Shown here: piece after piece, positions 48,275 through 64,000 of the stretch | How positions within the stretch are numbered: the stretch's first letter is position 1 | Layout: each line of letters begins with the position of its first letter | Assembly: GCF_014174375.1 (NCBI RefSeq) | Contig: NZ_JABEQE010000011.1 | Span: forward strand, 62,001-126,000 | DNA: 64,000 nt | Direction of reading: 5' to 3' | From: Gluconacetobacter asukensis | GTDB lineage: Bacteria > Pseudomonadota > Alphaproteobacteria > Acetobacterales > Acetobacteraceae | Translations under genes and position numbers: made by a program | The notes under the pieces: generated by a model | Database searches by the model: none | The model's input: the letters and a program-made list of their open reading frames with translations, nothing else | Told to the model about the DNA's origin: nothing

Positions 48275-49111
48275 TTAGAATGTGTAACCTGCACCCACGA
48301 TGAAAATGGTCATGAAGGACGGTCTACTATAGGATTCGTAGGAGCGGACCGCATTTGAACCGCCATTTGAAACGCTCATATGTGCATCGAGCGCGCCGAA
48401 CTGGCGCGACATGCTGATGAGCCAGTCGTACTGGACGCTGCCGGATCGGATATAGGCTCGGGCAGAGCCCGTCTCGCCATTCAAATATGTCAGCAGACCC
48501 AAATGCGCGCTCAGCCGGATTCCTGCCACCAGACCCGTATTGCCGCCCAACTCGGCATAGAACGTCTGATTGTTCGATTTCCAGTAATCGGGAGAGTAGT
48601 AGAGATGAAGGGAGACGTGACGCGAACTGAGGCCCGTGTAGACCTCGCTATACCCGATGCTTGTACCCCCTGGGCCGACGCCGATATATTCCGAGTGCGT
48701 CACCCCGGCATCGGCGGAGAGCCACAAGCCCAGGCGCCTGGCATAGCCTGCGTCGCCAATGATACCGGTGAGCCCCGGATGGTTGCGATCGGGGAGCGCC
48801 CCCAGAGCGGATCCGTTGAAGAACAGGCCCGACGTTAAATCATACGAAAGATCCAGCCTGCCAACGGGGCGTCCGCCAGTGACGGAGATGCCACGTACTT
48901 CATAATTGTTTTGCAGGCCCATCTGGCCGGCCACCTGCGCATGAGCGCGGCCGCAGCACATGATGGCCAGGGTGGCGGCACCCAGAACATGCACGCCCGG
49001 AAAACGAAAGGAAGAAAAAGCCGATTTATCTCCCCGCCATGATGGCGTGCGCATGGATTGGGCAGTCACAGTCGCATGGTTTTCCAGCATGCAATAATGT
49101 AGCACAGGCAT
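48275..49111 (-). CDS. outer-membrane beta-barrel protein (TorF/Gcw_chp-like)
   Basis: The 278-aa product has a signal sequence ending near AHAQ and then a beta-rich protein with LQNNYEVRGISVTGGRPVGR, DLSYDLTSGLFFNGSALGA, and a C-terminal aromatic end VGAGYTF. This resembles the Gcw_chp/TorF family of putative outer-membrane proteins, which bind or transport unknown solutes. AGGAGG 8 nt before ATG 49111 is a strong start, although it makes the gene overlap the S8 peptidase gene by 86 bp. It is last in a sigma/anti-sigma/peptidase operon and is probably an effector or target of that system. Confidence 0.72.
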   Translation of the reverse strand: MPVLHYCMLENHATVTAQSMRTPSWRGDKSAFSSFRFPGVHVLGAATLAIMCCGRAHAQVAGQMGLQNNYEVRGISVTGGRPVGRLDLSYDLTSGLFFNGSALGALPDRNHPGLTGIIGDAGYARRLGLWLSADAGVTHSEYIGVGPGGTSIGYSEVYTGLSSRHVSLHLYYSPDYWKSNNQTFYAELGGNTGLVAGIRLSAHLGLLTYLNGETGSARAYIRSGSVQYDWLISMSRQFGALDAHMSVSNGGSNAVRSYESYSRPSFMTIFIVGAGYTF

Positions 49112-50303
49112 CGATCACTCCTCCTGTCAGCCGAGGCGTGGCCAGCAGGGCAACAGGAGCATTTTTGCGGTCCTCACGGAGCAGCGCAACGAGTCCGCTG
49201 ACATGAGCTGCGGCATAAGAGCTGCCATGGGCCAGGGCCCACTGGCCGCCCGGCTGCGTCGTCGGCACGTCCTCGCCAGGGGCGAGGTAGACGCCTGATG
49301 GCGCGGTGGACGCGGAATCGATATCCACCGGAATGACATCGGGTGCGGAGGCCGGAAACCCGCCTTGGGGCAATGTCGGGTCGTACGCTGCAACGATCAC
49401 TATGCCGCGATGAGCAGCTATATCGATCAGGTTCGCGAGCAGGCGGTCAGGAGGACCTGAAAGGCTGAGATTGATGACGTCAGCAGAGTGTTCAATAGCG
49501 TATTGCAGTGCCTTTGCGAGGCTGAGGCTGTCACAGACAGTCGGCGCCGTCTGCTTTGTGGCATCGGTCTGCCAGCAGGCGCGTAGCGCCATCAGCTTCG
49601 CCCGAGGTGCTACGCCGGCGATACCAATGGCGTTGCCGGCCTTCGCCGCAATCACGCCTGCGACGCCAGTGCCATGCGTCTCGGCTGGTCCGTTGTCGGT
49701 GTCGACGAAATTCTCGCTGGAGACGAACTGGCCCGCAAGGTCGGGATGGTCAAGCTGAACGCGGCTGTCGACCACCGCGACGACCACGCCGCGCCCTGTT
49801 GCGACCCGGTGGAGGGCTGTCAAATTCCAGGCGGTGGTCACCGGCTGGAGGTCTGCCAGGGGGTCGTTAACAATGGGTGAGGGCGATGCTTCGGCCCTGT
49901 AGAGATGCATCGCCTGGGACCACAGAACGTTACTGTCGTCAGAAATGCGTTTTATCGCGGTTTCAACCGTATCGCCTGGCCCGACCTGCATAACGTAGCA
50001 GTCCACGCCCAGCAGGGGCATTTGCCATCCGTTGCCGACAAACGCCAGCCCGTAGCGATGGGCGATATCCTCCGCGCGCCGTCTCTGCGCAGCGATGGTG
50101 AACGCGTCGGCGTAATCCCCGCCATAGGACGCGCTGGGCCGGTGATGGTCCGGTGGAATGCGAAGCATCACGAGGATCTGCCGGGCATTCGTGGCCACTT
50201 CGCGCGAGGCGGCCGGCATATTGGGCAACATTAAACCCAGAAGCAGGACAAAAATGGTCTGAACCGCGCGGCACCAGGCCAGGGCAGCCACTTTACGCGT
50301 CAC
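49026..50303 (-). CDS. S8 (subtilisin-like) serine peptidase, exported
   Basis: The 425-aa product has a signal peptide (about 12-33), a propeptide-like region (about 40-135) and a subtilase domain. The triad is D179 (VAVVDSRVQLDHPDL), H210 (ETHGTGVAGVIA) and S362 (HGSSYAAAHVSG). The oxyanion-hole asparagine, usually in an AAGN segment, appears replaced (IVIVAAYDPTLP), so activity may be reduced or altered. The start is GTG 50303 directly after the anti-sigma stop codon, which suggests re-initiation. Location is periplasmic or outer-membrane. The C-terminus has CDCDC-like cysteines after KP. Confidence 0.85.
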   Translation of the reverse strand: MTRKVAALAWCRAVQTIFVLLLGLMLPNMPAASREVATNARQILVMLRIPPDHHRPSASYGGDYADAFTIAAQRRRAEDIAHRYGLAFVGNGWQMPLLGVDCYVMQVGPGDTVETAIKRISDDSNVLWSQAMHLYRAEASPSPIVNDPLADLQPVTTAWNLTALHRVATGRGVVVAVVDSRVQLDHPDLAGQFVSSENFVDTDNGPAETHGTGVAGVIAAKAGNAIGIAGVAPRAKLMALRACWQTDATKQTAPTVCDSLSLAKALQYAIEHSADVINLSLSGPPDRLLANLIDIAAHRGIVIVAAYDPTLPQGGFPASAPDVIPVDIDSASTAPSGVYLAPGEDVPTTQPGGQWALAHGSSYAAAHVSGLVALLREDRKNAPVALLATPRLTGGVIDACATLLHAGKPCDCDCPIHAHAIMAGR

Positions 50304-50945
50304 TCATCGCATATCACCGTCGATCGGTTCCGCGACGGTGACGTTGCTGTTGCTCCGGAGCCGGGACAGGGCCGCTGCACGCTGGTCATCGGCCACGTGC
50401 AGCACATAGGCATCAGACGTGGTGGGGCCATCCACAATCCTGGCCTGGTTCTGCGTCAGCACCGTGCGCAGGATGGCTTCGGACGTGTCTGGCTTGAATT
50501 TCACAATGACATTGCCAATGCTGGGATGAGGTGACCCACCAAGTGTCCGGTAGAGTGGCAGCGGTTTCACCAGCAAGAAAATCGCGACCGAAGCCGCCGC
50601 TGCAAATGCCATCGCTCCGGAGACCAATCTTCGGCTGCTGCGAGCATGTTGTCTCGGCTGCGGCCGCTTCATATCTGCCTGACCGGCTTCGATACGCGCC
50701 TTCATCGCGGCCCACCCCTGATCGACATCGCCCGGAAGCGCCCTGATCTTCCGCGCCTGGGCCCGTTCCATCCGCAAATCCTCACGGCACTCCGCACATT
50801 CAGCGAGATGCCGCTGAACGAGCGCCCTGTCGGTATCGCCGAGCGTGCCGGTCACAAACCAAGGCAACAATAGCTTGGTTTGGCTGTGCGGGGAGTCGTC
50901 GAAACGGCTGATGCCCATCTTAATGGACTCGATAATGTCCACCAT
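50304..50945 (-). CDS. membrane anti-sigma factor with subtilase-propeptide-like C-domain
   Basis: The 213-aa product has a zinc-binding anti-sigma domain (HLAECAEC, with H46, C50 and C53), one transmembrane helix near residues 104-126, and a periplasmic domain of about 70 residues (VIVKFKPDTSEAILRTVL, ARIVDGPTTSDAYVLHV, LSRLRSNSNVTVAEP). This last part resembles the propeptide fold that precedes subtilases. It is 9 bp from the sigma gene and immediately before the S8 peptidase gene. The peptidase may bind or cut this domain to release the sigma factor; this is inference. Confidence 0.82.
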   Translation of the reverse strand: MVDIIESIKMGISRFDDSPHSQTKLLLPWFVTGTLGDTDRALVQRHLAECAECREDLRMERAQARKIRALPGDVDQGWAAMKARIEAGQADMKRPQPRQHARSSRRLVSGAMAFAAAASVAIFLLVKPLPLYRTLGGSPHPSIGNVIVKFKPDTSEAILRTVLTQNQARIVDGPTTSDAYVLHVADDQRAAALSRLRSNSNVTVAEPIDGDMR

Positions 50946-50954
50946 AATGGACTC

Positions 50955-51563
50955 CTAGATCCAATCCGGCAGAGTGCCGTCCAACAGGCGACGCAGCTGA
51001 CGCCGCGCATGGAACATGCGGGTCTTCACGGTACCGACTGGGCATGACATGATGTCAGCGATCTCCTGATAGCCAAATTCCTGAAAATAAGTGAGTTCGA
51101 GAACCTCGCGGTGCTCGACAGAGAGGCCTTCCATCGCTTCCAGGAGCAGCTCCCGGTTGCGCCGGCGGCCGAGATTGTCTTCCGGGCTGAGTTCGGGGCT
51201 TACCTGTGACTCCGCGTTCTCGTCTTCCATCGGGTCCTGGTGATTTCGGAGCGCCTTCATGGACTTGCGGTAGGCGATGCCGAATATCCAGGTCGATAGC
51301 CTGCTGTCGCCCTTGAACGAATCCGTGTGGTCCCAAACCACCATCAGCGTGTCATTTACAACCTCTTCAACAAGATGGGGACGATGAACGCGTTTAAGCA
51401 CAAAGCGTGCGAGACGATCATAATAGCCGCGATAGAGTTCTTCAAAGGCAACCATGTCTCGCGCCCGGATGCGCTCCACCAACAGCGCATCGTTGTTGTT
51501 TCGGGCAACTGGCTGGCGCCGCGCAGCTTCCACGCTGCGGTCGCCCAAATCTTGGTCCCCCAT
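50955..51563 (-). CDS. ECF-type RNA polymerase sigma factor
   Basis: The 202-aa product has sigma-70 region 2 (AFEELYRGYYDRLARFVLKR, DTLMVVWDHTDSFKGDSRLS, WIFGIAYRK) and region 4 (LELTYFQEFGYQEIADIMSC, PVGTVKTRMFHARRQLRRLL). ATG 51563 with AGGA 6 nt upstream is chosen over start codons further upstream. It is the first gene of a four-gene unit: sigma, anti-sigma, S8 peptidase, outer-membrane protein. Autoregulation is usual in such operons, but I could not pick a confident ECF promoter. Confidence 0.92.
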   Translation of the reverse strand: MGDQDLGDRSVEAARRQPVARNNNDALLVERIRARDMVAFEELYRGYYDRLARFVLKRVHRPHLVEEVVNDTLMVVWDHTDSFKGDSRLSTWIFGIAYRKSMKALRNHQDPMEDENAESQVSPELSPEDNLGRRRNRELLLEAMEGLSVEHREVLELTYFQEFGYQEIADIMSCPVGTVKTRMFHARRQLRRLLDGTLPDWI

Positions 51564-51744
51564 GCTTATTCCTTTTGGTGCCCTGGAGCGCGTCCAAGGT
51601 TCAAGATTCAATTTATTCGCGAAAATTTTCATGGGCGCCACCACTAATAACGACCTCTCTCCGCGATCGAACGTTTCAGCGGCCGGATGGAACTAAGCTG
51701 TGGGGAAAGCACACAATGATGTGTGCAACGACAAGGTATCGTGA

Positions 51745-52989
51745 ATGGACTGCGAATGGGATGTCGAGGCCGGACTCTCCGCCGAGGAGGTACGTCAACG
51801 TTTCGCCTGGGCCCGCAGGCAGGGACGGCCGGCCTGGCTGTGGCCTGACGTGTCGGTCGAATCATGGGGTGCCGCGCTCGGAACCATTCAGAAGGCGGCT
51901 GTTGCGTGTCTTGGCGGAGAGGCGGCCACGGATCTTGACGGTGGCGCGGAGGCTCTGGGTCTGGCCGGCTACACGTCCGGCATGGGGCCGCTTCTCGGCT
52001 TCTGGATCGAACAGGGGCGGCTGCGGGCTGGCCCGTCCGTCGTCGTGGAGCTTGAGCGCCAGCTGAGGCATAACAGGCGGCGGGCGAAGCGGATGGCGGC
52101 GGTAGCCGCCGCGCTTGTCGGCAGGCTGGTCGAGCTTCGGATCGAGGTTCTGATACTCAAGGGCGCTCACACGAGCACGGTCTATTTTCCCGAGCCCGGC
52201 GTGCGGCCGGCATCGGATATCGACCTGCTGGTGGCGCATGGGGATGGGCATCGCGCCGAGGCTGTGCTGGCGCAACTCGGGTTTTCGCTACAGAAGCGTG
52301 GCAGGTGGGAGAGCAGCTGGTCCCTGCCGGCGGCGAGCGGCGAACCGCGAACGCTTACTTATGTCCATGCCGACGATCCCTGGTCGATCGACCTGCATAT
52401 TTCGCTCGACATATCGGCGGGACACGGCACGCCGCTGGGCCATTTCGACCTGGCGGCTCCGTTCGCGGGCAGGGAGCGTTGGGCTGTCGATGCGCGGGCC
52501 CGCGTACTGGAGCCAGCGCCGTTGCTGCTGCATCTGGCGGCCCATGCGGGAGTCGGCTGGCAGAACCTGACCTTGTTGCGTCAGGTCGAACTGGTTCTGG
52601 TCGTACGGCGGGAGGTCGCCTTGCGCCGCCTGTGCTGGGACGAATTCCTTGCGACGGGTCGGCTCACGACGGCGCTCGGCTATGCCTATCCAGCCCTTCG
52701 GTTGGCCGAGCGGCTTCTGCCGGGCACGGTGCCGGCGAACGTTCTCGAAGAGTGTGCCCGATGGGTTCCGCGCACCGTGCGGCGCAGGCTCGCGCGCTTG
52801 AGCCCTGCATCGGCCCAGCGTATCGGGCGCAACTCGCTCGCCGAGCATTTCATGTGGGCCCAGGGATGGCGCGGACGGTTGCGGATGCTCGCAGCGGACC
52901 TGCTTCCCGACGACCGCCGTTGGTCGGATCGCCGCCGAATCTACGAAGCCCGCGCCTGGCGTCTCATCCGTGGAACGATCAGCCGGTAA
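51745..52989 (+). CDS. NTP_transf_5 nucleotidyltransferase-like protein
   Basis: The 414-aa product has the core of the uncharacterised nucleotidyltransferase family (PF14907 type): ILKGAHTSTVYFPEPGVRP then ASDIDLLVAHGD, with K139 and D158/D160. The family appears in clusters for exopolysaccharide, exosortase systems and some lasso peptides, often beside HprK-like kinases. An HprK-like gene is indeed 4.6 kb away on the same strand. The biochemical substrate is unknown. It is divergent from the ECF sigma operon and convergent with the radical SAM gene, overlapping its end by 11 bp. No signal peptide. Confidence 0.8.
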   Translation: MDCEWDVEAGLSAEEVRQRFAWARRQGRPAWLWPDVSVESWGAALGTIQKAAVACLGGEAATDLDGGAEALGLAGYTSGMGPLLGFWIEQGRLRAGPSVVVELERQLRHNRRRAKRMAAVAAALVGRLVELRIEVLILKGAHTSTVYFPEPGVRPASDIDLLVAHGDGHRAEAVLAQLGFSLQKRGRWESSWSLPAASGEPRTLTYVHADDPWSIDLHISLDISAGHGTPLGHFDLAAPFAGRERWAVDARARVLEPAPLLLHLAAHAGVGWQNLTLLRQVELVLVVRREVALRRLCWDEFLATGRLTTALGYAYPALRLAERLLPGTVPANVLEECARWVPRTVRRRLARLSPASAQRIGRNSLAEHFMWAQGWRGRLRMLAADLLPDDRRWSDRRRIYEARAWRLIRGTISR

Positions 52990-54523
52990 GGACCATCCTG
53001 GGCGATCTCCGCGGCTTCGGCGCGCTTGCGGGGCGCAAATGGCCATAGGCCTGGGAATCGTCGGGCGTAATGCGGGCGAACCTGCGGATCTGCCGCAGGA
53101 GCCGCGGATCGTCGTAGATCTCCTGCCTCCAGCGCCACCACGCGGCAGCCTTGCCGAGCAGCTTTCCCCAATCCCGCGTCTTTCGGTCATGAACCGAGGG
53201 GAAGCGGCTTTTCAGCACCAGATCAAAATCCTGTGCGCGTGTCCGCAGTTTTTGCGCGAACCAGGGTAGGCGCGGGTCTTCGTGCGTCATCCACGCCACC
53301 CATTCCGGCTCGATCCATTCCTCAAGAGTGTCGGGAGTGCCCGCATGGGCATCTACGCCGCCATAGGTCTGGCGGCGCTGGGGCGTGGGCGTGAAGAAAT
53401 AGCTGATCAGCTCCATATCCGGATTTATCGCCTTCAGCCTGCGAATGAAGGAGAACGTGTTCTCCATCTCTTGCTCCGGCCTTTCCGGATCGCCGAAGAT
53501 GAAGGAAAACTCGGGGATGATGCCGTGTTCCCGCGTCTTCGCCGCCGTCATGAGTATCTGCTCGGTCGTGATGCCCTTGTTCATCCGCTCCAGCACCTCG
53601 TCCGAACCGGATTCGGCTCCGCAGAACACCATGAAAAGGCCGGCCTCCCGAAGTGCCCGCCAGGTCGCATCGGAAAAGCGGCAGAGCGCGTCGACCCTCG
53701 CTTCACACCACCACCGCAGGCCCAGCGGCTTCATCGTACGGGCGACCTCCTGGGCGTGCGCTTCGTTGAGGAAGAAATTATTGTCGTAGAAATGCACCGA
53801 ATCCATGCCGTGATGCTGCACGAGATAGCGGAGATGCTCGGCAGTGCGCTCGGGCTGCTGGACTTTCTCGCGGCGGCCGAAGACGCTGATCACGCCGCAG
53901 AAATTACAGCCATATGGGCATCCGATCGAGGCCTGATAGACGCCGGACCGATGGCCCAGTATGGTCGGCCGAAGATACTGGCCGACATCGATCCTGTGAT
54001 ATGGCGGCGCGGGCAGCTCGCCCGGTCCCTTCCAGACGCGCTCCGGCCCGATCCAGTGCGATCCGTCCTCCTGCCGGAAGGCGATGCCGGCGACGGTTTT
54101 CGGATCGCGCCGGCCAGCGATGGCTTCGAGCAGCTCCAGGAACGTCTCCTCGCCCTGTCCCTGCACGACCCAGTCGACATAAGGCGCGTTCAGCACCGGC
54201 TGCGGATACAGGCTGCCGAAATTGCCGCCCCAGATCATCGGAATGTCCGGATAGCGCTGCTTTATCGCCTTGGCGAGGGGCACGGCGCTTACGAGTTGCG
54301 GGCCCGGCATGACGGTCATGGCGATGCTGCGCACCGGGTCGCCTTCCGCCGCTGCCTGTTCGATATGCCCGGCTATGACGGAGAACGCGTCGATGCCGGG
54401 CAGGTTCCCGTCGACGATCTTCCAGTTGACGTCGGAGGGAAGTGCCGCGCCGATGGCCATGACCGAGAGCGGGAAGCGGCGATTTTCCGGGCGCGTGGCG
54501 CGCGGGTTCACGAGGATAATCAC
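52979..54523 (-). CDS. B12-type radical SAM protein (1)
   Basis: The 514-aa product has an N-terminal Rossmann-like cobalamin-binding-type domain (about 1-150, IWGGNFGSLYPQPVL, VVQGQGEETFLELLEA) and a radical SAM core with the 4Fe-4S motif GCPYGCNFC (C202, C206, C209). The DxHxxG cobalamin base motif is not visible, so B12 may be bound base-off or not at all. Such enzymes catalyse methylations or rearrangements at unreactive carbons. It is last of a four-gene minus-strand unit and overlaps the methyltransferase before it by 4 bp. The product is unknown. Confidence 0.85.
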   Translation of the reverse strand: MIILVNPRATRPENRRFPLSVMAIGAALPSDVNWKIVDGNLPGIDAFSVIAGHIEQAAAEGDPVRSIAMTVMPGPQLVSAVPLAKAIKQRYPDIPMIWGGNFGSLYPQPVLNAPYVDWVVQGQGEETFLELLEAIAGRRDPKTVAGIAFRQEDGSHWIGPERVWKGPGELPAPPYHRIDVGQYLRPTILGHRSGVYQASIGCPYGCNFCGVISVFGRREKVQQPERTAEHLRYLVQHHGMDSVHFYDNNFFLNEAHAQEVARTMKPLGLRWWCEARVDALCRFSDATWRALREAGLFMVFCGAESGSDEVLERMNKGITTEQILMTAAKTREHGIIPEFSFIFGDPERPEQEMENTFSFIRRLKAINPDMELISYFFTPTPQRRQTYGGVDAHAGTPDTLEEWIEPEWVAWMTHEDPRLPWFAQKLRTRAQDFDLVLKSRFPSVHDRKTRDWGKLLGKAAAWWRWRQEIYDDPRLLRQIRRFARITPDDSQAYGHLRPASAPKPRRSPRMVLTG

Positions 54524-55323
54524 GGGCGCGTGGCACTCCAGAGATCGAAACGGGAGGGCGCGCGCGCGCGCCGCAGTCTGGCGACGACGGGGCGGATTTC
54601 ATACCAGAGCGGATAGCGCACGCGCGACCGGCGCCACGCGCAGCCGATCGGCGCCGATGCAGCCGCCAGGCGTTCGCGTGTCAGGAATTCGATGAAGGGG
54701 AGGGACATCAGCGTTTCGGCATGCGCGCCGAAGCGGCATGGCGCGTCGGCCAGTTTCTCCGCCACCATGACAAGCCCGTCGGCCTCGTGGCGGTAGAAGG
54801 GCGAATCAAGGATCACGAGCCGGCCGCCGGGCCGCACGGCGCGGGCTGCCTCTGCCAGGACGGCGCCGAGATTCGTCGCGTAATGCAGCGAGGCATTGAA
54901 GACCGCGATATCGAAGCTGGCATCCGGCATGGGGATGGCGTCGAAAGAAGCATCCAGGGTCTGCATCCTGCCGCCGCTCCGCTCCAGAAAAGGGGCTGCG
55001 GCGCCTAGTCCGTCGACCTTGTCGCTGCGGATGTCGAGTGCCGTCGTGTCATGCCCTTCCAGCGCAACGCGGTAGCTCAGCCAGCCATTGCCCGCCCCCA
55101 GGTCAAGCAACTGCAACCCGCGGCCGAGCGATGCGGCGAGGGGCCGGATGATCCGACCAAGCAGCGCCTCGAAGCTGCGTGCCCGCACACCCCATTGGCG
55201 CGCGAGGGGGCCATGGCGCAGATAGGGCAGGCCGAGCAGCGCGTCCTCGGCATAGAGGCGGCCTTCCGCCGCGCGGTGGGCCGCGTAATCCCGGGCGAAA
55301 TCCCGCAGCGCGTCGCGGCTCAT
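54520..55323 (-). CDS. class I SAM-dependent methyltransferase (1)
   Basis: The 267-aa product has motif I LLDLGAGNGWLSYRVAL near residue 72, TTALDIRSDK, then FDIAVFNASLHYA and the post-motif RPGGRLVILDSP. These fit a class I methyltransferase of the small-molecule type. The substrate is unknown. ATG 55323 is chosen because it overlaps the upstream gene's stop as ATGA; the frame runs further up but only as a shadow. It is third in the unit rSAM(2)-MT(2)-MT(1)-rSAM(1). Confidence 0.83.
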   Translation of the reverse strand: MSRDALRDFARDYAAHRAAEGRLYAEDALLGLPYLRHGPLARQWGVRARSFEALLGRIIRPLAASLGRGLQLLDLGAGNGWLSYRVALEGHDTTALDIRSDKVDGLGAAAPFLERSGGRMQTLDASFDAIPMPDASFDIAVFNASLHYATNLGAVLAEAARAVRPGGRLVILDSPFYRHEADGLVMVAEKLADAPCRFGAHAETLMSLPFIEFLTRERLAAASAPIGCAWRRSRVRYPLWYEIRPVVARLRRARAPSRFDLWSATRP

Positions 55324-56129
55324 CGGGCTTCGGCCCCGTTGCGCACGAAACGGTAGAGAATATGGTCCCCCAATCGCGCGAGCGGCCCGGCGAACACGCG
55401 GTCGAGCCTCTCGAACGCATCCAGGAGTCTCGGATGGCCCGATATCCAAGGCTCGGCCGCGCTGGGCGGCACGAAGACACCCACGCCCAACCGGCCATCG
55501 GGGCGAAACCACGGCGCCATCGCGCGTTCGATATCGCGCCGCCCGTGATAGCGGACGTTGAACGTGCGCCCGCCCAGCCGCGCGGGCCGGTCGCCCGTAC
55601 CAAGTCGCCGGAAGGCCTCGCCGGGACGGCCGCGCGCCATCTCGGTTACCCATTCGCCGGGGCAGGAACGGCCGAACACCACGAGTATCGCCGGCGCCCC
55701 CTCGCGCAGGAGCGTCGCCAGCCCGGCCGCAAAGGGACGGAGATCGCCGACGCAGTTCAATGCGGCGAAATTTGAGAAAGCGCCGTCCAGCGGGAGGCTG
55801 ATCCGGGTGGCCAGTCCGGCAAGGTCCTCGGCGGCGCAAAGCGCCGTTCGCGCACCGGCGCGGCCCGCGAATTTCCTGCCGGACAGGCGCACCATCGCGG
55901 GAGAGGCATCGGTCAGAAGCACCTCCCGCCCGCGCTCGAGAAGCCACAATGCGTCTTCGCCGGTGCCGCCGCCGATCTCGATCACCCGGGCGCCCGGTGG
56001 AAAAGCGCGCGCCAGGACCCTCCGGACCGCGCGCCGTTGTGCGGCCACGCTGAGCCAGGGCGTGAAGCGCGCGTCGAAACCTTCCGCGATCGCGTCGAAA
56101 GCCGCTGCGGCCGGCGGCAGGCCTTGCAT
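55320..56129 (-). CDS. class I SAM-dependent methyltransferase (2)
   Basis: The 269-aa product has motif I VIEIGGGTGEDALWLLERG near residue 45 and LLTDASPAMVRLSGRK, followed by FSNFAALNCVGD, typical of class I methyltransferases. C-terminal residues 180-265 form a separate segment of unknown role. ATG 56129 starts 11 bp after the stop of rSAM(2), and the stop overlaps the next start by 4 bp. The substrate is unknown; two different methyltransferases in one unit suggest two methylation steps. Confidence 0.82.
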   Translation of the reverse strand: MQGLPPAAAAFDAIAEGFDARFTPWLSVAAQRRAVRRVLARAFPPGARVIEIGGGTGEDALWLLERGREVLLTDASPAMVRLSGRKFAGRAGARTALCAAEDLAGLATRISLPLDGAFSNFAALNCVGDLRPFAAGLATLLREGAPAILVVFGRSCPGEWVTEMARGRPGEAFRRLGTGDRPARLGGRTFNVRYHGRRDIERAMAPWFRPDGRLGVGVFVPPSAAEPWISGHPRLLDAFERLDRVFAGPLARLGDHILYRFVRNGAEAR

Positions 56130-56140
56130 CCCGCTCAACG

Positions 56141-57538
56141 TCAAGCCTCGAGCTGATGCTGGAACGGGTGAGGCGACCGATGGTGGAAGGCTTCGGCCTC
56201 CAGCCCGTTCCACGCCTCGTCATTCCAGATACCGGTCTCGTTTTCCGCATGCAGCAGGTCGCGCACCTTGCGGTAGAATTCGGTGGAATAGGTTCCCTGG
56301 AACAGCATCGCCAGCTCGCCCGTGGTCGTCCAGTTGCGCTGCCGCCCGAGCTGGGCCTGCACGCGCGCATGAAAGGCCGTGCCCGGCAGCGGATACGCGA
56401 CCGACACGCCGATTTCGTCCGGGTTTTCCTCCCGGATCAGGTCGCGGGTGGCGAGGATGTCCGGCCAGCTTTCGGGCGGATAGCCGAGCTGGATGAACCA
56501 GCAGGCGCGCACGCCATGTGCCTTGAGCACGCGCGTCGCCGTTCGCGCGGCCGTCACGCTCGCGCCCTTGTCCATGGCGTCGACGACCCTTTGTGAGCCG
56601 CTCTCGACGCCAAGCCAGACTTCTCTCGCACCCGCCCGTGCCAGCGCGTCGACCATGCTTTCGGTCATGAGGTTGACGCGCGACTGCATGGTGAACGGAA
56701 TCCGGCAATTGCCGTTCGTGACCTCACGCGCGAAGCCGGTCGTCCAGTCGGTGTCGAGGCCGAAGATGTCGTCGGCAAACCAGACCTGGTCGGGCGCCAC
56801 TTCCGCCTTCAGGCGAATCATTTCGTTCGCGACGTGGGTTGGCGACCGAACTTCATAGCGCCGGCCGAATGTCGGTTTCGCGCACCAGTTGCACGTATAG
56901 GGACAGCCGCGCGAAGTCGCCATATTCCATGAAAATACGCCATGCGCGCCCGTCCAGGCGCGGCGGTAGGCATCGATGTCGAGCAGGTCCCACGCCGGGG
57001 ACGGCAGGCGGTCGATGTCACGCAGCGGGGGGCGAGCGGGTGTGGAAACCGGCTTGCCGGCCCCTGGCAGGAGCAACCCGGCGACGGAAGACGCGTTGTT
57101 ATTTCCCCCGTTCCAGAGGCCGACGAGTTCGGCCAGCGCCATCTCTCCCTCGCCGAGTGCCACGGCCGACGCGCCGGCGGCCAGATAGGCAGCGGGCATG
57201 TCGGCGGCATCGGGCCCATTCACGGCCACCCGGCAGCCGCGCGCCCGCGCCGCTCCGATGATCGCCAGCGCGCTCTCGCGGCGATTGGTGGTGCACATCT
57301 TGGTCAGGAAATTGAAATTGTCTTCCATGAGAACGACAATGCGCGGTTCGTACTCATCCAGTGCCTTCTCGAAATCCTCAATCCCGTCGGCGAACGTGGC
57401 GTCAAACAGTGCCACGTCATGCCCGCCTTCGCGCAGCAGCGCGGCGAGTATCAGGGTGGACAACGGGGAATAGGGCTTCATCCTTGAAAATTGTTTTGGG
57501 TCGTGCTGCAAAAAATACGAATGGGCGAGCAGGATCAA
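56141..57538 (-). CDS. B12-type radical SAM protein (2)
   Basis: The 465-aa product has a B12-binding-type N-domain (KPYSPLSTLILAALLREGGH, FDATFADG) and a radical SAM core with SRGCPYTCNWC (C212, C216, C219). Later segments AREVWLGVESGSQRVVD and QLGYPPESWPDI are typical of BchE-like and anaerobic cyclase-type proteins. No DxHxxG is seen. The start is taken as TTG 57538, with GGGAG about 9 nt upstream; no ATG gives a full N-domain. It is the first gene of the four-gene unit and is divergent from the HprK-like gene. Confidence 0.84.
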   Translation of the reverse strand: MILLAHSYFLQHDPKQFSRMKPYSPLSTLILAALLREGGHDVALFDATFADGIEDFEKALDEYEPRIVVLMEDNFNFLTKMCTTNRRESALAIIGAARARGCRVAVNGPDAADMPAAYLAAGASAVALGEGEMALAELVGLWNGGNNNASSVAGLLLPGAGKPVSTPARPPLRDIDRLPSPAWDLLDIDAYRRAWTGAHGVFSWNMATSRGCPYTCNWCAKPTFGRRYEVRSPTHVANEMIRLKAEVAPDQVWFADDIFGLDTDWTTGFAREVTNGNCRIPFTMQSRVNLMTESMVDALARAGAREVWLGVESGSQRVVDAMDKGASVTAARTATRVLKAHGVRACWFIQLGYPPESWPDILATRDLIREENPDEIGVSVAYPLPGTAFHARVQAQLGRQRNWTTTGELAMLFQGTYSTEFYRKVRDLLHAENETGIWNDEAWNGLEAEAFHHRSPHPFQHQLEA

Positions 57539-57601
57539 TGTCCGAGACTCCCACGATGCCGCATATTGTTCATCGGGTGCGATTCAGTATAAAATTGTCG
57601 C

Positions 57602-58507
57602 ATGCCAAACGAAATTTTTATCCTGCAGCTGTCGATCATGGAACGGCCAGTGAGGATATTGACATCGGATCCGGATCTTCTGGCGACGATGGAAGAGGCA
57701 TATGCAGCCTGGCGTCCGGCAACCCGCACGGACGGGGCGCCCATCACGATCGACCTGCACATCATTGATACGGACGCCGGCCTTTCCCATCGCATCGATG
57801 TCGACGGGCCCTTTCTGAGCATGAGCGGAGATGGGATCGACGGATGGGCCGATGCCGGAATTCTTTTCGCGACCTGCAAGGTTCCGAAATATCTGATCGG
57901 GCGGCCCGGGCAGCTCGCGGAGGAACTGACCGACACATTGCTGCTATTCCTGCTGACCCGCTCGGGACGGACACCGCTCCATGCGGCCGGAATCGTCCTG
58001 GGAAACAGGGCGATTCTGCTGACGGGCGCGAGCGGGAGTGGGAAGAGCACGCTCACCCTCGCTGCAATGAGGCGGGACCTCCGCATTCTTTCCGACGACA
58101 CCGTGTACATCCAGTTGCAGCCTCGCTTGCGGATTTGGGGCTTTCCGCGCCCGGTTCATGTGTTCCCCGACGATGCGCCAGGGTTCATCGCGGCAACCCG
58201 GTTGAGGGGAGGGAAATTGAAGGCGGCGATCCCCGCGCCGTTTCCGGCCGAGCCGCCCGTAGCGGACCACCCGGTTGTCGTGGTGCTGGAACGGGGCGAG
58301 ACAATCCGGATGGACCCTATCGAACCCGCGATCGCGGCGGCCGCGCTGTCGCGGCTGGAACCCGGTTTCGATCTGCTGGCCCATGCGTCCGCGAGCGCGG
58401 CAAGCGCGATCGTGGCCAGGGGCGCATGGCGATTGACGCTAGCCCGGGATCCGGACGCGGCGATGGATGCGCTGATCGGGCGGCTGGCGCAGGATGCGAT
58501 GAAATAG
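57602..58507 (+). CDS. HprK-like P-loop protein
   Basis: The 301-aa product has a C-terminal domain like HPr kinase/phosphorylase: PLHAAGIVLGNRAILLTGAS then GSGKSTLTLAAM (P-loop at about 142-150) and LSDDTVYI. PTS-type HprK activity is unlikely here; such proteins occur in glycan, exosortase and RiPP clusters with NTP_transf_5 proteins. The substrate is unknown. ATG 57602 is used; ATG 57638 is an alternative. It is divergent from rSAM(2) and convergent with the glycan protein, 5 bp apart. Confidence 0.78.
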   Translation: MPNEIFILQLSIMERPVRILTSDPDLLATMEEAYAAWRPATRTDGAPITIDLHIIDTDAGLSHRIDVDGPFLSMSGDGIDGWADAGILFATCKVPKYLIGRPGQLAEELTDTLLLFLLTRSGRTPLHAAGIVLGNRAILLTGASGSGKSTLTLAAMRRDLRILSDDTVYIQLQPRLRIWGFPRPVHVFPDDAPGFIAATRLRGGKLKAAIPAPFPAEPPVADHPVVVVLERGETIRMDPIEPAIAAAALSRLEPGFDLLAHASASAASAIVARGAWRLTLARDPDAAMDALIGRLAQDAMK

Positions 58508-58512
58508 ACTGG

Positions 58513-60003
58513 TCACGTCATGCGCCGGCGGGCGTAGTCCGCGGCCATGCCGTGCAATTGCTGCAGGGTCTCGGCGATGGGCGGCATCGTGTCCAAAAGC
58601 GCCCGCTCCCTCCGGCCGGATAAAGCCGCGATCTGCGGCAGCAACCCGTCCACATCCGCCAGCACCGCCTGCCGCCGTTCGATCAGGCCAGGGAAGGCGC
58701 CGGCCGCCGCCGGGTCGAGAAACAGGGCGGGAATGCCGAAGGCCGCCGCCTCCACGGCGGCGCCGGAGGCGAGCGAGACCAGCACGTTCACGCGTTCGAG
58801 CAGCGCGGTGAGGGGCAGCAGGCAGGCTTCCTCGACGATAACATTGGGTCTTCGGAGAGCCAGGAGATCGCTGTATTCGGCATCCTGCGACGCGGAGGCG
58901 GACGGATGGCGGCGTATCCACCAGCGCCAGCTTGCGGGGGATGCCTCGATATGGCGCGCCAGCTTCTGCCACACCGCGCGATATCCGCCGATCGGCTGCA
59001 ATGCCACCAGGATTTCCCGATCGAAGGCCGGGTCTGGATGCGGACCCGGCACCTTCGCGTGGGCGGCGTGCTGCGTGTGGCCGCCATGGATCGCCCCGTG
59101 CCACGGGGCCCGCGCCCAATCCGCGATCCGTGCCACATCCTCGGCGCCCCAGCACCAGAACATCGCGGGGAGCGTGGAATAGCCCGATGCCGGAAGGCCG
59201 TGCCAGCTATAGGCGCGGTGCCCTTCCTGCGGGCAGTGCTGGAGATCGATGCACAGGATACCCTCTCGCCGGCAGGCGAGGGCGAAAGCGTGGCCGAGGC
59301 CTGCATAATACGTGACCACGAAGGCGATCCGGGGCCTGACCCTGCGAAGAATGCGCTGAAAGAGCGTGGCTGCGGCAAAGACGGTGCGAAATCGCCTGTT
59401 CAGCCGCTCGGCATGGAGCGAAGGCGCACGCACGCCTTCCTGGTGCAGGAATTCGAGAACCGGGGCATGATCCGGCAGATCGAGAGATCGTGCCGGCCGG
59501 AGAGCGCCCGTGAGAGCCGCCGTGAGGGCCGCGCGGACCGCGACCGTATTGGCGGCATAGGTCGGGCGCAGCCAGGGCAGGCGGTTCAGCCCGCCCGGCT
59601 GCATGAGGAAGGTTCCAAGCCCCTGCCCATCGAGGGTTGCCATCACCGGTTCGCCGTAGCGGTCGCGCCAGGAGCCCGCGACCCTGTCCAGCGAAACACC
59701 GTCGCCGAGCAGGATCGCATCGGCCGGCACCGGTCGCGGCTGCCAGTGGCGCAGGTCCTTCCGGCTCTTCCAGACATTGGTGAGCGGGGTGGCGAGGCTC
59801 GCGGCGGCGCGGTGGAGGAAAGGCCGGGGCGGCGGCGCGGTGTTGCCGCCCGCGGCGCCGAACATGTCGAGGAACAGGTCCGTCGCGGCAAGCGGCCAGA
59901 GATCGACATCTCCGCCCCGCCACCGGGCCACGTCGAAACGCGCCTCGATCGCCCCGACGAGGCGGCGATGGTTTTGCTGGACGGCATTCATCTGGCGTGT
60001 CAC
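58513..60003 (-). CDS. capsule/surface-glycan biosynthesis protein (GT-B-like)
   Basis: The 496-aa product contains CIDLQHCPQEGHRAYSWHGL, resembling the LQHG..H.GY segment of capsule and surface-glycan transferases, and a C-terminal nucleotide-sugar-like site (WWIRRHPSAS, then VSLASGAAVEAAAFGIPALF). This pattern suggests a GT-B fold that transfers a sugar or glycerol phosphate. The specificity is unknown. GTG 60003 overlaps the preceding methyltransferase stop as GTGA and is chosen; ATG 59991 would be four residues shorter. Confidence 0.62.
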   Translation of the reverse strand: MTRQMNAVQQNHRRLVGAIEARFDVARWRGGDVDLWPLAATDLFLDMFGAAGGNTAPPPRPFLHRAAASLATPLTNVWKSRKDLRHWQPRPVPADAILLGDGVSLDRVAGSWRDRYGEPVMATLDGQGLGTFLMQPGGLNRLPWLRPTYAANTVAVRAALTAALTGALRPARSLDLPDHAPVLEFLHQEGVRAPSLHAERLNRRFRTVFAAATLFQRILRRVRPRIAFVVTYYAGLGHAFALACRREGILCIDLQHCPQEGHRAYSWHGLPASGYSTLPAMFWCWGAEDVARIADWARAPWHGAIHGGHTQHAAHAKVPGPHPDPAFDREILVALQPIGGYRAVWQKLARHIEASPASWRWWIRRHPSASASQDAEYSDLLALRRPNVIVEEACLLPLTALLERVNVLVSLASGAAVEAAAFGIPALFLDPAAAGAFPGLIERRQAVLADVDGLLPQIAALSGRRERALLDTMPPIAETLQQLHGMAADYARRRMT

Positions 60004-60689
60004 GCGCCGGTGCCCCGTTTCCGGAACCCTACAGGATAATAGCGCCCGTTCGGAACGAGCAGACCGTTCCGGTCGTAGAGCAGGTCTGTCGCCATCTGAT
60101 CCGGCCGAGCTTCGAGCACGGCGTCGAACGCCGCGGCGGCCGCCGTGTCGGAAAAGCGGAAATTCGTGGTGTGGAGGAAAAGCAGGCCGCCGGGCGCGAG
60201 GCAGCGCGAGAAACCGTCCACGGCGCGCTCGAAATCGGCGAAACGCATGAGCCTCCCGCTCCGGCGGGCGCGCCTTACGGTCAGGTCGCCATGGCACAGG
60301 ACGGCGAGGCAGAAAATCGCGTCGTAATGGCCGGAAGGCTCGGCACCGGTGTCCGGCGCGGCCTGAAAGCTCAGCCGGTCGTCGTTCAGGCCCCGCGATC
60401 GGGCGATGCAGGCGTCGATATTCGCCGGGTTGATGTCGATTCCTCTGATCGGCGCGTCCGGAAAGCGCTGGCGGAGGCTGAACACCTCATCGCCGCGCGA
60501 GCATCCGAAAGACAGCAGGCGTGGGGCCGGCTTGCCCGCGAGGGCTTCCGCCGCGAAGTCGAACAGCCACGGATAGCGGTCTGGAAGCGTGAAGGAATAG
60601 GGCTGGAAGCGCCCGGCGACCGGCTTGCGCAGGCGACGGCGCATGGCGGCGGCAAGAGGCCGCAGCGCGGCCGGGATGAAGGGCCTCAT
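60000..60689 (-). CDS. class I SAM-dependent methyltransferase (3)
   Basis: The 229-aa product shows a methyltransferase fold: LLSFGCSRGDEVFSLRQRFP near residue 58, GIDINPANIDACIARS and YDAIFCLAVLCHGDL, then CLAPGGLLFLHTTNFRF. The GCSRGDE motif is like CheR-type and small-molecule methyltransferases. It is the middle gene of a three-gene minus-strand unit: fusion protein, methyltransferase, glycan protein, all with 4-bp overlaps. The substrate is unknown. Confidence 0.82.
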   Translation of the reverse strand: MRPFIPAALRPLAAAMRRRLRKPVAGRFQPYSFTLPDRYPWLFDFAAEALAGKPAPRLLSFGCSRGDEVFSLRQRFPDAPIRGIDINPANIDACIARSRGLNDDRLSFQAAPDTGAEPSGHYDAIFCLAVLCHGDLTVRRARRSGRLMRFADFERAVDGFSRCLAPGGLLFLHTTNFRFSDTAAAAAFDAVLEARPDQMATDLLYDRNGLLVPNGRYYPVGFRKRGTGA

Positions 60690-62824
60690 GTCATCGTCCG
60701 CAGGCGGGTCGGGGTGACCAGTCGGACGGGCGCCCCGCCCAGATGCCGCTCCATCTTGTGCAGCACCTCGGCAAGCGCCCCGGCCCGCAGTTCCTCCGCG
60801 CTTCCCGCTATGTGCGAGGTGAGAAACACGTTCGGCAGGCGCCGGAGGGGATCGCGCGCGGGCGGAGGCTCGCGATCGAACACGTCGATGCAGGCGAAGA
60901 TGTCACCGGCTTTCAGGCGGGCGAGCAGCGCGCCGGGCTCGATCAGCTCCGCGCGGGCCACGTTGATCAGGACCGCACCGGGCCTGAGCCGCGCCAGTTC
61001 CGCGCTGCCGAGGAAATGCCGGGTCGCGGGCGTGAGGCCGCGATGCAGGGAGACGATGTCCGCCGCCAGGGCCTCGCCCAGGGCGGCGGGGGTGGCACCC
61101 ACCGCCCGGATATCCCCGACCGGAGCGTGTTCGGAAAACACGAGGACCTTCGCGCCCGCAGCGACGAGGCGCACGGCAAGCGCCCGTGCGTTCTCGCCCC
61201 AGCCGATCAGCCCCGTGGTCGCGCCATGCAACGCCCGCGTGGGCGTGGAGGCGGCCGGCGCGATGCCGTGGAGTGGCCGGGCCTGCCGCCAGCCCCTGCG
61301 CAGCAGCGGCTCCAGCCCCATGCGGGCCGCGACGGGGCGGACCGCCCGTGCCGCCTTCAGGGCGCTTCCCCGCCAGCCATCTGGCTGTACCGCGCTTCCC
61401 CACCCTCCGTTGCGCATGAGTTGATGCGAGGCGAAGCCGCGACGGCGGCCGAGGATCGCGAGGCCCAGGACGAATTCGGCGACATTCTCGGCATAGGTGC
61501 GGCTGGCGTTCACGAGCGCCACGTCCCGCGCGAGAAGCGCTTCGGGATTGTGCCGCGCAAAGGAGAGCCCGACGAGGCCGGCAACCCGCAGGTTGGGCAT
61601 CAGATCGAGGAGCGCGTCCGTTATCACCCGCGGTCCGGTTCCGATGAGCGCCGCCACGATATCCGGACGCGGCCGGGCCGACCGCAGCACGTCCTCGATC
61701 GCCACGATCGGCCGGTCGATGGATGTCGTGACGCGGCCCAGCGAGAGACCGCGCGCATTGACGACCAGCATGGACCCGGCGCCGGAAAGCCCGTCGCCGA
61801 CAGGTCCGTCTTCGGGAGAGCAGTCATCGGACGGGCTTTTGTCGAACCATCGGGGGGCGGCAACTGGCCGGACCGGGGATGTCTCCGGCCAGTCCACCTT
61901 ACCGCTGAAACCGGCCTCGATCAGTTCGGCGAGCCTGAGCGACGGGGCGAGCGCCGCGATGCCGTGCGGCGGCTCCGTGCGCTGCGCGATTGCGTCCAGA
62001 AATGCGGCATGCTCGGCCGCGAACCCGTCATCAAGGCCCGGCATGGGCGTGGTGTGCGTCTGGCCCGCCCTGGCGACGTGCAACGCCTCCTCGTCGATGC
62101 GGCAGGTCAGGCCGGCCGCATGGAAGGCATATGCCTCCCGCCGCTCGCCTGCGTTGTTGTCGCAGAGGAAGCTGCCCCGCGCGCCGTCGGGCCATTGCAG
62201 GAGCGCAGCATAGGCGTTGGGCCTGACGCTGGTGGCGATATGATCGGGGAGGCTGCCGTTTATGAACAGCAGGGCGTCGAGGGCATGAATGCCATTGGCG
62301 GTCAGCCAGCTGCTTGCGCCGAAGGGTGGGGCAACAGCGTGAGATGGTTTGTGGAATACGGCTTCGAGGGAGTGCCAGCCTGCCTTGCCGCCCAGGCGCC
62401 GCACTTCGCCCATGGAGCGGTAGAAGCGGCGGTTGTGCCCGCCACAGGCGACCAGCCCCCGCGCTTGCGCCATTTCGGCCAACCGGCAGGCCGCGGCGTA
62501 GTTCGGGGCGATCGGCTTCTCGGCGAAGAGATGTTTGCCCCGCTCCAGCGCCGCCATGCCCAGCGTGTAGTGCATCCGCGCGTCACCGAAAAGGTAGACG
62601 GCATCGACATCCGCGCGTTCAAAGCCGGACAGGGCATCGCCGCTGCATCGGGAAAAGCCGAATTTCTGCCGCGCCGCGACGGCGCGCTCTTCCATCACGT
62701 CGCAGATCTCGACGAGGGCAAGCCGCCCGGCGTCGCGCAACTGCGCGAGCCTGGGCAGGTGAAGCAGGCATGACGTTACCCCGGCGCCCACGACGAGTGC
62801 ACGGATCGGTGCCGCGCGCGTCAT
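60686..62824 (-). CDS. fusion: Gfo/Idh/MocA oxidoreductase + D-2-hydroxyacid dehydrogenase
   Basis: The 712-aa product joins two NAD(P)-dependent dehydrogenases. Residues 1-310 form a Gfo/Idh/MocA enzyme: ALVVGAGVTSCLLHLPRL, the EKP motif (E102-K103-P104) and H179 in ANGIHALD. After a linker (about 310-345), residues 346-712 form a D-isomer 2-hydroxyacid dehydrogenase with GLIGWGENARALAVRLV and the triad R624 (NVARAELIE), E652 (FDREPPP) and H671 (LTSHIAG). Both halves keep their catalytic residues. Together they could oxidise a sugar and then reduce, or oxidise, a keto acid. I know of no such fusion. It is first in its unit and divergent from the CapE-like gene. Confidence 0.85.
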   Translation of the reverse strand: MTRAAPIRALVVGAGVTSCLLHLPRLAQLRDAGRLALVEICDVMEERAVAARQKFGFSRCSGDALSGFERADVDAVYLFGDARMHYTLGMAALERGKHLFAEKPIAPNYAAACRLAEMAQARGLVACGGHNRRFYRSMGEVRRLGGKAGWHSLEAVFHKPSHAVAPPFGASSWLTANGIHALDALLFINGSLPDHIATSVRPNAYAALLQWPDGARGSFLCDNNAGERREAYAFHAAGLTCRIDEEALHVARAGQTHTTPMPGLDDGFAAEHAAFLDAIAQRTEPPHGIAALAPSLRLAELIEAGFSGKVDWPETSPVRPVAAPRWFDKSPSDDCSPEDGPVGDGLSGAGSMLVVNARGLSLGRVTTSIDRPIVAIEDVLRSARPRPDIVAALIGTGPRVITDALLDLMPNLRVAGLVGLSFARHNPEALLARDVALVNASRTYAENVAEFVLGLAILGRRRGFASHQLMRNGGWGSAVQPDGWRGSALKAARAVRPVAARMGLEPLLRRGWRQARPLHGIAPAASTPTRALHGATTGLIGWGENARALAVRLVAAGAKVLVFSEHAPVGDIRAVGATPAALGEALAADIVSLHRGLTPATRHFLGSAELARLRPGAVLINVARAELIEPGALLARLKAGDIFACIDVFDREPPPARDPLRRLPNVFLTSHIAGSAEELRAGALAEVLHKMERHLGGAPVRLVTPTRLRTMT

Positions 62825-63061: not shown

Positions 63062-64000
63062 ATGGACTGGATGCGTACGCCGATCGCCACTGAAACGAAG
63101 CTTGGCGACGTGGACCTTCAGTGCGTTCCGGGCGGCGCGCAGCTTCACGCCGAGCTCCCGGAACCGAGGAACTTCTCGGGCGCTACAATCATGATCACCG
63201 GCGGCACAGGCTCATTCGGTTCGACGATTCTGAAGCATTTCCTTGCGTTGTCGGTGGCGGAAGTGCGGGTGGTGAGCCGGGATGAAAAGAAGCAGGATGA
63301 GCAGCGCCGGCGCTTCGCCGACGGCAGGATCAGACATTATGTCGGGGATGTTCGCGATTTCCGCGCGATGGAAGGCATCTGTCGGGACGTGGATTTCATC
63401 TACCATGCCGCGGCGCTGAAGCAGGTGCCGTCCTGCGAGTTCCACCCGATCGAGGCCGTAAACACCAACGTGACCGGGACGCAGAACGTTCTGGATGCCG
63501 CCATTCGCGCGGGCGTGCAGCGCGTCGTCTGCCTCTCGACCGACAAGGCGGTCTACCCGATCAACGCGATGGGAATGTCGAAGGCCCTTATGGAAAAGGT
63601 AATGGTCGCGAAGTCGCGCGAGGCATCGGGCAAGCGGACGGTGATAACCGGCACCCGTTACGGCAATGTGCTTGCCTCGCGTGGCTCCGTGGTGCCGCTT
63701 TTCATGGATCAGGTGCGGCGCGGCCAGCCGATCACCATCACCGATCCGAATATGACGCGCTTTGTCATGACGCTCGATGAAGCGGTGGAACTCTGCCTGG
63801 ATGCCTTTCAGTTTGGCGGAAACGGCGAAATTCTGGTCCGCAAAGTTCCTGCCGTGACGATCGAGAAACTAGCCCAGGCGGTTCTGGAGGTCATGGGACG
63901 GCCGGATCACCCGATCCGCATCATCGGTCCGCGTCATGGCGAGAAGCATTTCGAAACGCTGCTAAGCCGCGAGGAGATGGCGGTCGCGCAGGACCGGGAG
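63062..64000 (+). CDS. CapE-like UDP-GlcNAc 4,6-dehydratase/5-epimerase (3' end beyond window)
   Basis: An open frame of 313 codons runs off the right edge. MITGGTGSFGSTILKHFL is the NAD(P)-binding site; VVSRDEKKQDEQRRRF, HAAALKQVPSCEFHPIEAVN and STDKAVYPINAMGMSKALME follow. The methionine in place of the usual SDR tyrosine (M..SK) fits Cap5E/CapE and FnlA-type enzymes, which start the route to UDP-L-FucNAc or L-QuiNAc. The start is uncertain: homology begins near NFSGATIMITGG, about 37 residues after ATG 63062. It points to a 6-deoxy-amino-sugar in the surface glycan. Confidence 0.83.
   Translation, partial: MDWMRTPIATETKLGDVDLQCVPGGAQLHAELPEPRNFSGATIMITGGTGSFGSTILKHFLALSVAEVRVVSRDEKKQDEQRRRFADGRIRHYVGDVRDFRAMEGICRDVDFIYHAAALKQVPSCEFHPIEAVNTNVTGTQNVLDAAIRAGVQRVVCLSTDKAVYPINAMGMSKALMEKVMVAKSREASGKRTVITGTRYGNVLASRGSVVPLFMDQVRRGQPITITDPNMTRFVMTLDEAVELCLDAFQFGGNGEILVRKVPAVTIEKLAQAVLEVMGRPDHPIRIIGPRHGEKHFETLLSREEMAVAQDRE

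Follow-up and report, generated by a model that had tools for sequence, protein, structure and literature searches.

A fused Gfo/Idh/MocA oxidoreductase and D-2-hydroxyacid dehydrogenase in surface-polysaccharide loci of Gluconacetobacter and a distant alphaproteobacterium

Several described systems share features with the protein examined here. WbpB, a Gfo/Idh/MocA enzyme that acts in O-antigen synthesis, couples the oxidation of a sugar to the reduction of 2-oxoglutarate: the NADH that it binds tightly is re-oxidised as D-2-hydroxyglutarate is formed, a product that is also made by SerA, a D-2-hydroxyacid dehydrogenase (PMC8651671). Both steps of WbpB take place in one polypeptide without a D-2-hydroxyacid dehydrogenase. 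The D-2-hydroxyacid dehydrogenases themselves have an Arg-Glu-His catalytic triad (PMC6303947). Fusions of two dehydrogenases in polysaccharide loci are a general kind of protein already known from the bi-domain-containing oxidoreductases, which join a zinc alcohol dehydrogenase to a Gfo/Idh/MocA domain.

We analysed a 64,000-nucleotide stretch of DNA from Gluconacetobacter asukensis (the window) in which a Gfo/Idh/MocA oxidoreductase is followed, on the same chain, by a D-2-hydroxyacid dehydrogenase. The N half resembles WbpB/WlbA (UDP-GlcNAcA 3-dehydrogenase) in its fold (VIA Z of 32.8 to 3q2k), the lysine of the EKP motif, the histidine and the polysaccharide setting, but in the fusion a separate D-2-hydroxyacid dehydrogenase is attached. 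It also has the Gfo/Idh/MocA fold of GnnA (UDP-GlcNAc 3-dehydrogenase; Z of 33.0, 22% identity), an enzyme that, unlike the fusion, has no fused second dehydrogenase. As in the bi-domain-containing oxidoreductases, two dehydrogenases share a chain (about 730 aa in those proteins) encoded in polysaccharide loci, and the Gfo half of those proteins aligns with fusion residues 6–308 at 27%. By contrast, their partner is a zinc alcohol dehydrogenase at the N-terminal end, whereas that of the fusion is a D-2-hydroxyacid dehydrogenase at the C-terminal end. A Pfam search gave no zinc alcohol dehydrogenase match (PF00107) in the window protein; the domain is present in the bi-domain comparator. We found no description of this fusion or domain pairing in the open-access literature searched, where family names make clumsy search terms.

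A preliminary description of this DNA had proposed that one continuous 712-residue frame joins two enzymes that are normally separate, and had suggested channelling of a keto intermediate or recycling of the cofactor between the halves during synthesis of an uncommon sugar acid. Translation of the open reading frame gave 712 uninterrupted codons on the minus strand (62824 to 60686), the strand being absent from that description, and the Pfam search placed PF01408 and PF02826 on one chain. Such a frame could also result from an assembly error or a frameshift merging two genes. However, the same fusion occurs in independent assemblies, three of Gluconacetobacter and one of a distant genome, and many stops crowd the remaining sense frames of the gene. 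A stop and start near residue 320 were sought in relatives and none was found, the copies in G. tumulicola, G. aggeris and the distant genome (G657) being unbroken. We regard an artefact as extremely improbable and, given four independent genomes with the fusion, rejected it. The coordinates are collected in Table 1.

Table 1. Coordinates in the window of the fusion gene, its parts and neighbouring genes
Feature	Position	Strand	Evidence
Gfo/Idh/MocA–D-2-hydroxyacid dehydrogenase fusion, 712 aa	60686..62824	-	Translation, Pfam, full-length relatives
N half, residues 1–315, complete Gfo/Idh/MocA oxidoreductase (Rossmann and alpha/beta domains), K103, H180	61880..62824	-	AlphaFold, Foldseek/VIA, 23-sequence alignment
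Variable linker, residues 316–349	61778..61879	-	pLDDT, gaps versus distant homologue, weakest constraint (few sites)
C half, residues 350–712, D-2-hydroxyacid dehydrogenase, triad R624/E652/H671	60689..61777	-	PF02826, alignments, model confident at about 530–650
Insertion of about 47 residues (within 478–530) between substrate and Rossmann domains	61235..61393	-	Alignments; two low-confidence helices in model
Class I methyltransferase, shares 4 bp (ATGA) with the fusion stop; homologue with 56% identity in G657 locus	60000..60689	-	Pfam, comparison
492-aa glycosyltransferase-like protein (weak PF20471/DUF6716), third operon gene; 48–49% identical homologue in G657 locus	58513..59991	-	Pfam, comparison
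B12-binding radical-SAM protein	56141-57538	-	Pfam
Methyltransferase	55320-56213	-	Pfam
Methyltransferase	54520-55323	-	Pfam
B12-binding radical-SAM protein	52979-54523	-	Pfam
FnlA/CapD-like UDP-GlcNAc 4,6-dehydratase, opens FnlABC-like set	63062..64000	+	Pfam

Full-length copies with 97% identity are present in G. tumulicola LMG 27725 and G. aggeris LMG 27801, so that the fusion occurs in 3 of 14 Gluconacetobacter genomes, the window genome included. Among about 1,150 genomes, it was found in one further genome, G657, an alphaproteobacterium of another order. The G657 copy (702 aa) is about 50–52% identical end to end and scores above threshold for PF01408, PF22725, PF00389 and PF02826. Conservation against it is concentrated at both active sites while the linker drifts. 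Samples of the family, order, class and phylum, and G657's own small order, gave no further fusions, nor did viral contigs, plasmids or the other sampled genomes, and Pfam found no Gfo domain in other long D-2-hydroxyacid dehydrogenase frames. Because both halves are about 50–52% identical in a different order, the fusion is genuine, far beyond chance. It is a rare, apparently horizontally distributed bifunctional oxidoreductase. We consider it very likely that the protein is a true fusion, probably active in both halves, that serves polysaccharide precursor synthesis.

When Gfo and D-2-hydroxyacid dehydrogenase sequences were both aligned to the full protein, the Gfo rows landed on the wrong Rossmann domain; the halves were therefore aligned apart. 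In the N half, PF01408 matched at residues 7–126 (8.7e-16). E102-K103-P104 and H180 are invariant across 23 aligned sequences; the preliminary description had recognised the EKP motif and placed the histidine at 179. It had also called both nucleotide sites intact, which holds broadly for motifs that are slightly degenerate, GAGVTS in the N half and GWGENA in the C half instead of GxGxxG. The structure of the N half was predicted with 23 related sequences. AlphaFold modelled residues 1–309 as a complete Gfo/Idh/MocA fold (pLDDT 83, pTM 0.84), with a C-terminal alpha/beta domain that has an open sheet at residues 126–307. Family structures matched this model at Z of 31–34 over about 300 residues (Foldseek/VIA). 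Levoglucosan dehydrogenase, GnnA, WlbA, KijD10, DgpA and scyllo-inositol dehydrogenase all fall in this range at about equal closeness, and because of this the fold does not choose a substrate. Between species, dN/dS of the N half is 0.08–0.54, a range based on small counts.

In the C half, PF02826 matched at residues 526–673 (4.1e-36). PF00389 gave a weak match at 390–698 (0.0034; 17.5 bits against a threshold of 24.6), and in the G657 fusion it reached 41.9 bits. R624, E652 and H671 lie exactly where they had been claimed to lie and are invariant, as is N621, the triad being so across all aligned fusions and D-2-hydroxyacid dehydrogenase relatives. The model of the C-terminal Rossmann domain matches D-2-hydroxyacid dehydrogenases, and the best match of the C half is PGDH (1wwk). 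The triad is shared with SerA/PGDH-like enzymes, but these are unfused and have the usual GVG loop and Asp, where the fusion has Leu-Ser and Ser. They also lack the 47-residue insertion, which is present in both fusion lineages and missing from 10 stand-alone D-2-hydroxyacid dehydrogenases. The usual glycine of the beta4-alpha4 substrate loop is Ser421 in both fusion lineages, and Ser564 replaces the usual NAD-ribose Asp. Because some stand-alone relatives also have lost the loop glycine or have that Ser, these changes are no proof of lost function, and membership in the family stands on other features. They do warn against assuming a textbook NADH-linked 2-ketoacid reductase.

One half could instead be non-catalytic and act as a scaffold or sensor like CtBP-like proteins, and the C half does have a CtBP-like G in its HRGL loop, the insertion and a degenerate GxGxxA motif. 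The invariance of the triad and N621, together with dN/dS of about 0.2 (0.19–0.23 between species for the C half, from small counts), argues against this explanation and we consider it improbable.

The halves are joined by a linker with pLDDT below 50 at residues 309–329. It is gapped against the G657 homologue, varying in both length and sequence, and its dN/dS is mostly above that of both halves (few sites, small counts). The full-length model has a mean pLDDT of 53, is poor beyond the C-terminal Rossmann domain and gives no interdomain arrangement. A long, variable, disordered linker is what might be seen if two independent reactions of one pathway had been joined for stoichiometry or shared oligomerisation without direct coupling, and both enzyme families are usually oligomeric. 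By contrast, retention of the fusion at about 50% divergence and the independent pairing of the two activities elsewhere suggest more than convenience. Joining for co-expression seems unlikely to us.

This independent pairing is in viral contigs. Each half queried alone matched the same viral contigs, where a D-2-hydroxyacid dehydrogenase gene overlaps a following Gfo/Idh/MocA gene. Where the contig continues, a SIS isomerase gene comes next, and some contigs have a cytidylyltransferase gene. The overlapping pair occurs in five contigs (L112:7189-9570, L113:7192-10271, L114:7205-9519, L115:7166-8972 and L116:75-2528), with Gfo genes 57–59% identical to the one in contig L067. We read these genes as a sugar cassette of phage glycosylation islands and found no description of it. 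Identity between the viral Gfo genes and the N half of the fusion is only about 20–23%, so we take the pairs as a sign that it is useful to have both activities side by side, and not as orthology. Several viral contigs (L068-L070) also encode a longer D-2-hydroxyacid dehydrogenase; that at L069:1042-2637 has 532 aa, including a C-terminal extension of about 240 residues that has no Pfam match.

Separate viral genes kept with isomerase and cytidylyltransferase genes would fit an enzyme in which a single sugar-derived intermediate is handled first by one half and then by the other, the gain being proximity or channelling. The Gfo half might, for example, yield a keto-sugar or an aldonic derivative whose 2-oxo or 2-hydroxy acid group the other half might reduce or oxidise. 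The common locus and companion genes, as well as an altered L420-S421 substrate loop that fits a non-standard acid, are consistent with this. However, nothing in the sequence points to a tunnel, no intermediate was identified, and the model places neither site relative to the other. Such a sequential pathway is possible, and nearly as likely as the cofactor recycling that we tentatively prefer.

For cofactor recycling, the Gfo/Idh/MocA half would bind a sugar, probably nucleotide-activated, and Lys103 and His180 would support hydride transfer at a ring carbon so that a keto-sugar is formed and the cofactor is reduced. Using Arg624, Glu652 and His671, the attached second half would reduce a 2-oxoacid to a D-2-hydroxyacid and so re-oxidise the cofactor, making the pair redox-neutral. 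Unbroken homologues, invariant catalytic residues, the Gfo fold of the N half, companions shared by two lineages and the viral pairs favour this reading, in which we infer the substrates, the direction and the sharing of cofactor. Recycling has a biochemical precedent in the single enzymes WbpB and SerA, and a D-2-hydroxyacid dehydrogenase attached to a Gfo enzyme would split the two tasks of WbpB into two modules. Because of Ser421 and Ser564, the acceptor may be something other than a simple 2-oxoacid, and NADP(H) may serve as the cofactor; recycling fails if the halves prefer different cofactors. The protein could be a modular counterpart of WbpB, a self-contained redox-neutral sugar oxidase with its own recycling 2-oxoacid reductase domain that provides a rare polysaccharide with an unusual residue, but we hold this fuller picture to be somewhat doubtful. 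If the halves are redox-coupled, the fusion would show how nature drives an unfavourable sugar oxidation by recycling the cofactor within one protein, which would be of use to enzymology and biocatalysis. If they are only tethered, its interest is modest and lies in the rare domain architecture.

The fusion is the first gene of an operon that continues with the methyltransferase and the 492-aa glycosyltransferase-like protein. In the companion block downstream (52979..57538, minus strand), the radical-SAM genes and the methyltransferase at 55320-56213 have homologues in the G657 locus. Upstream and divergent are the FnlABC-like set and glycosyltransferase, Wzy and Wzz genes, which reach beyond the window; the locus has UDP-L-FucNAc-type genes. 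For the uncommon sugar acid suggested in the preliminary description, the genes scanned at the locus included no recognisable uronic-acid pathway, and no WbpA-like UDP-GlcNAc 6-dehydrogenase or WbpA/WbpE/WbpD set was identified among the neighbours scanned. In G657, the fusion is near Wzi, ABC transporter, SLBB export and Wzz-, Wzx- and Wzy-like genes, the last three labelled by reading the sequence and not by a profile match. The same stretch has homologues of three radical-SAM genes and of another methyltransferase. Because gene order differs between the two loci, the shared gene set is conserved but is not a fixed operon. The sugar biosynthesis setting proposed earlier agrees with these surface-polysaccharide loci and their common companions in both lineages.

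The fusion probably belongs to a mobile surface-polysaccharide cassette. The set of fusion, 492-aa protein, methyltransferases and B12-binding radical-SAM proteins, at 52979-62824 in the window and in L047/L050 of the distant alphaproteobacterial order, suggests a mobile polysaccharide cassette that makes a radical-SAM-modified residue. The fusion would then be a marker for a polysaccharide cassette that is rare, apparently mobile and equipped with B12 radical-SAM enzymes. The 492-aa protein has almost no Pfam match and possibly represents a new glycosyltransferase family; Azospirillum has a partial homologue in a polysaccharide locus of the nonulosonate type (L060). Among the genes next to the relatives of the 492-aa protein in Azospirillum and genome G638, the fusion was not found in split form. 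A convergent HPr-kinase-like gene lies inside the cassette (57602-58507), and an NTP_transf_5 nucleotidyltransferase gene is nearby (51745-52989). This pairing occurs in peptide and polysaccharide loci. At 49026-51644, genes for a sigma factor, an anti-sigma-like protein and an S8-type serine protease, as judged by sequence only, are in a row.
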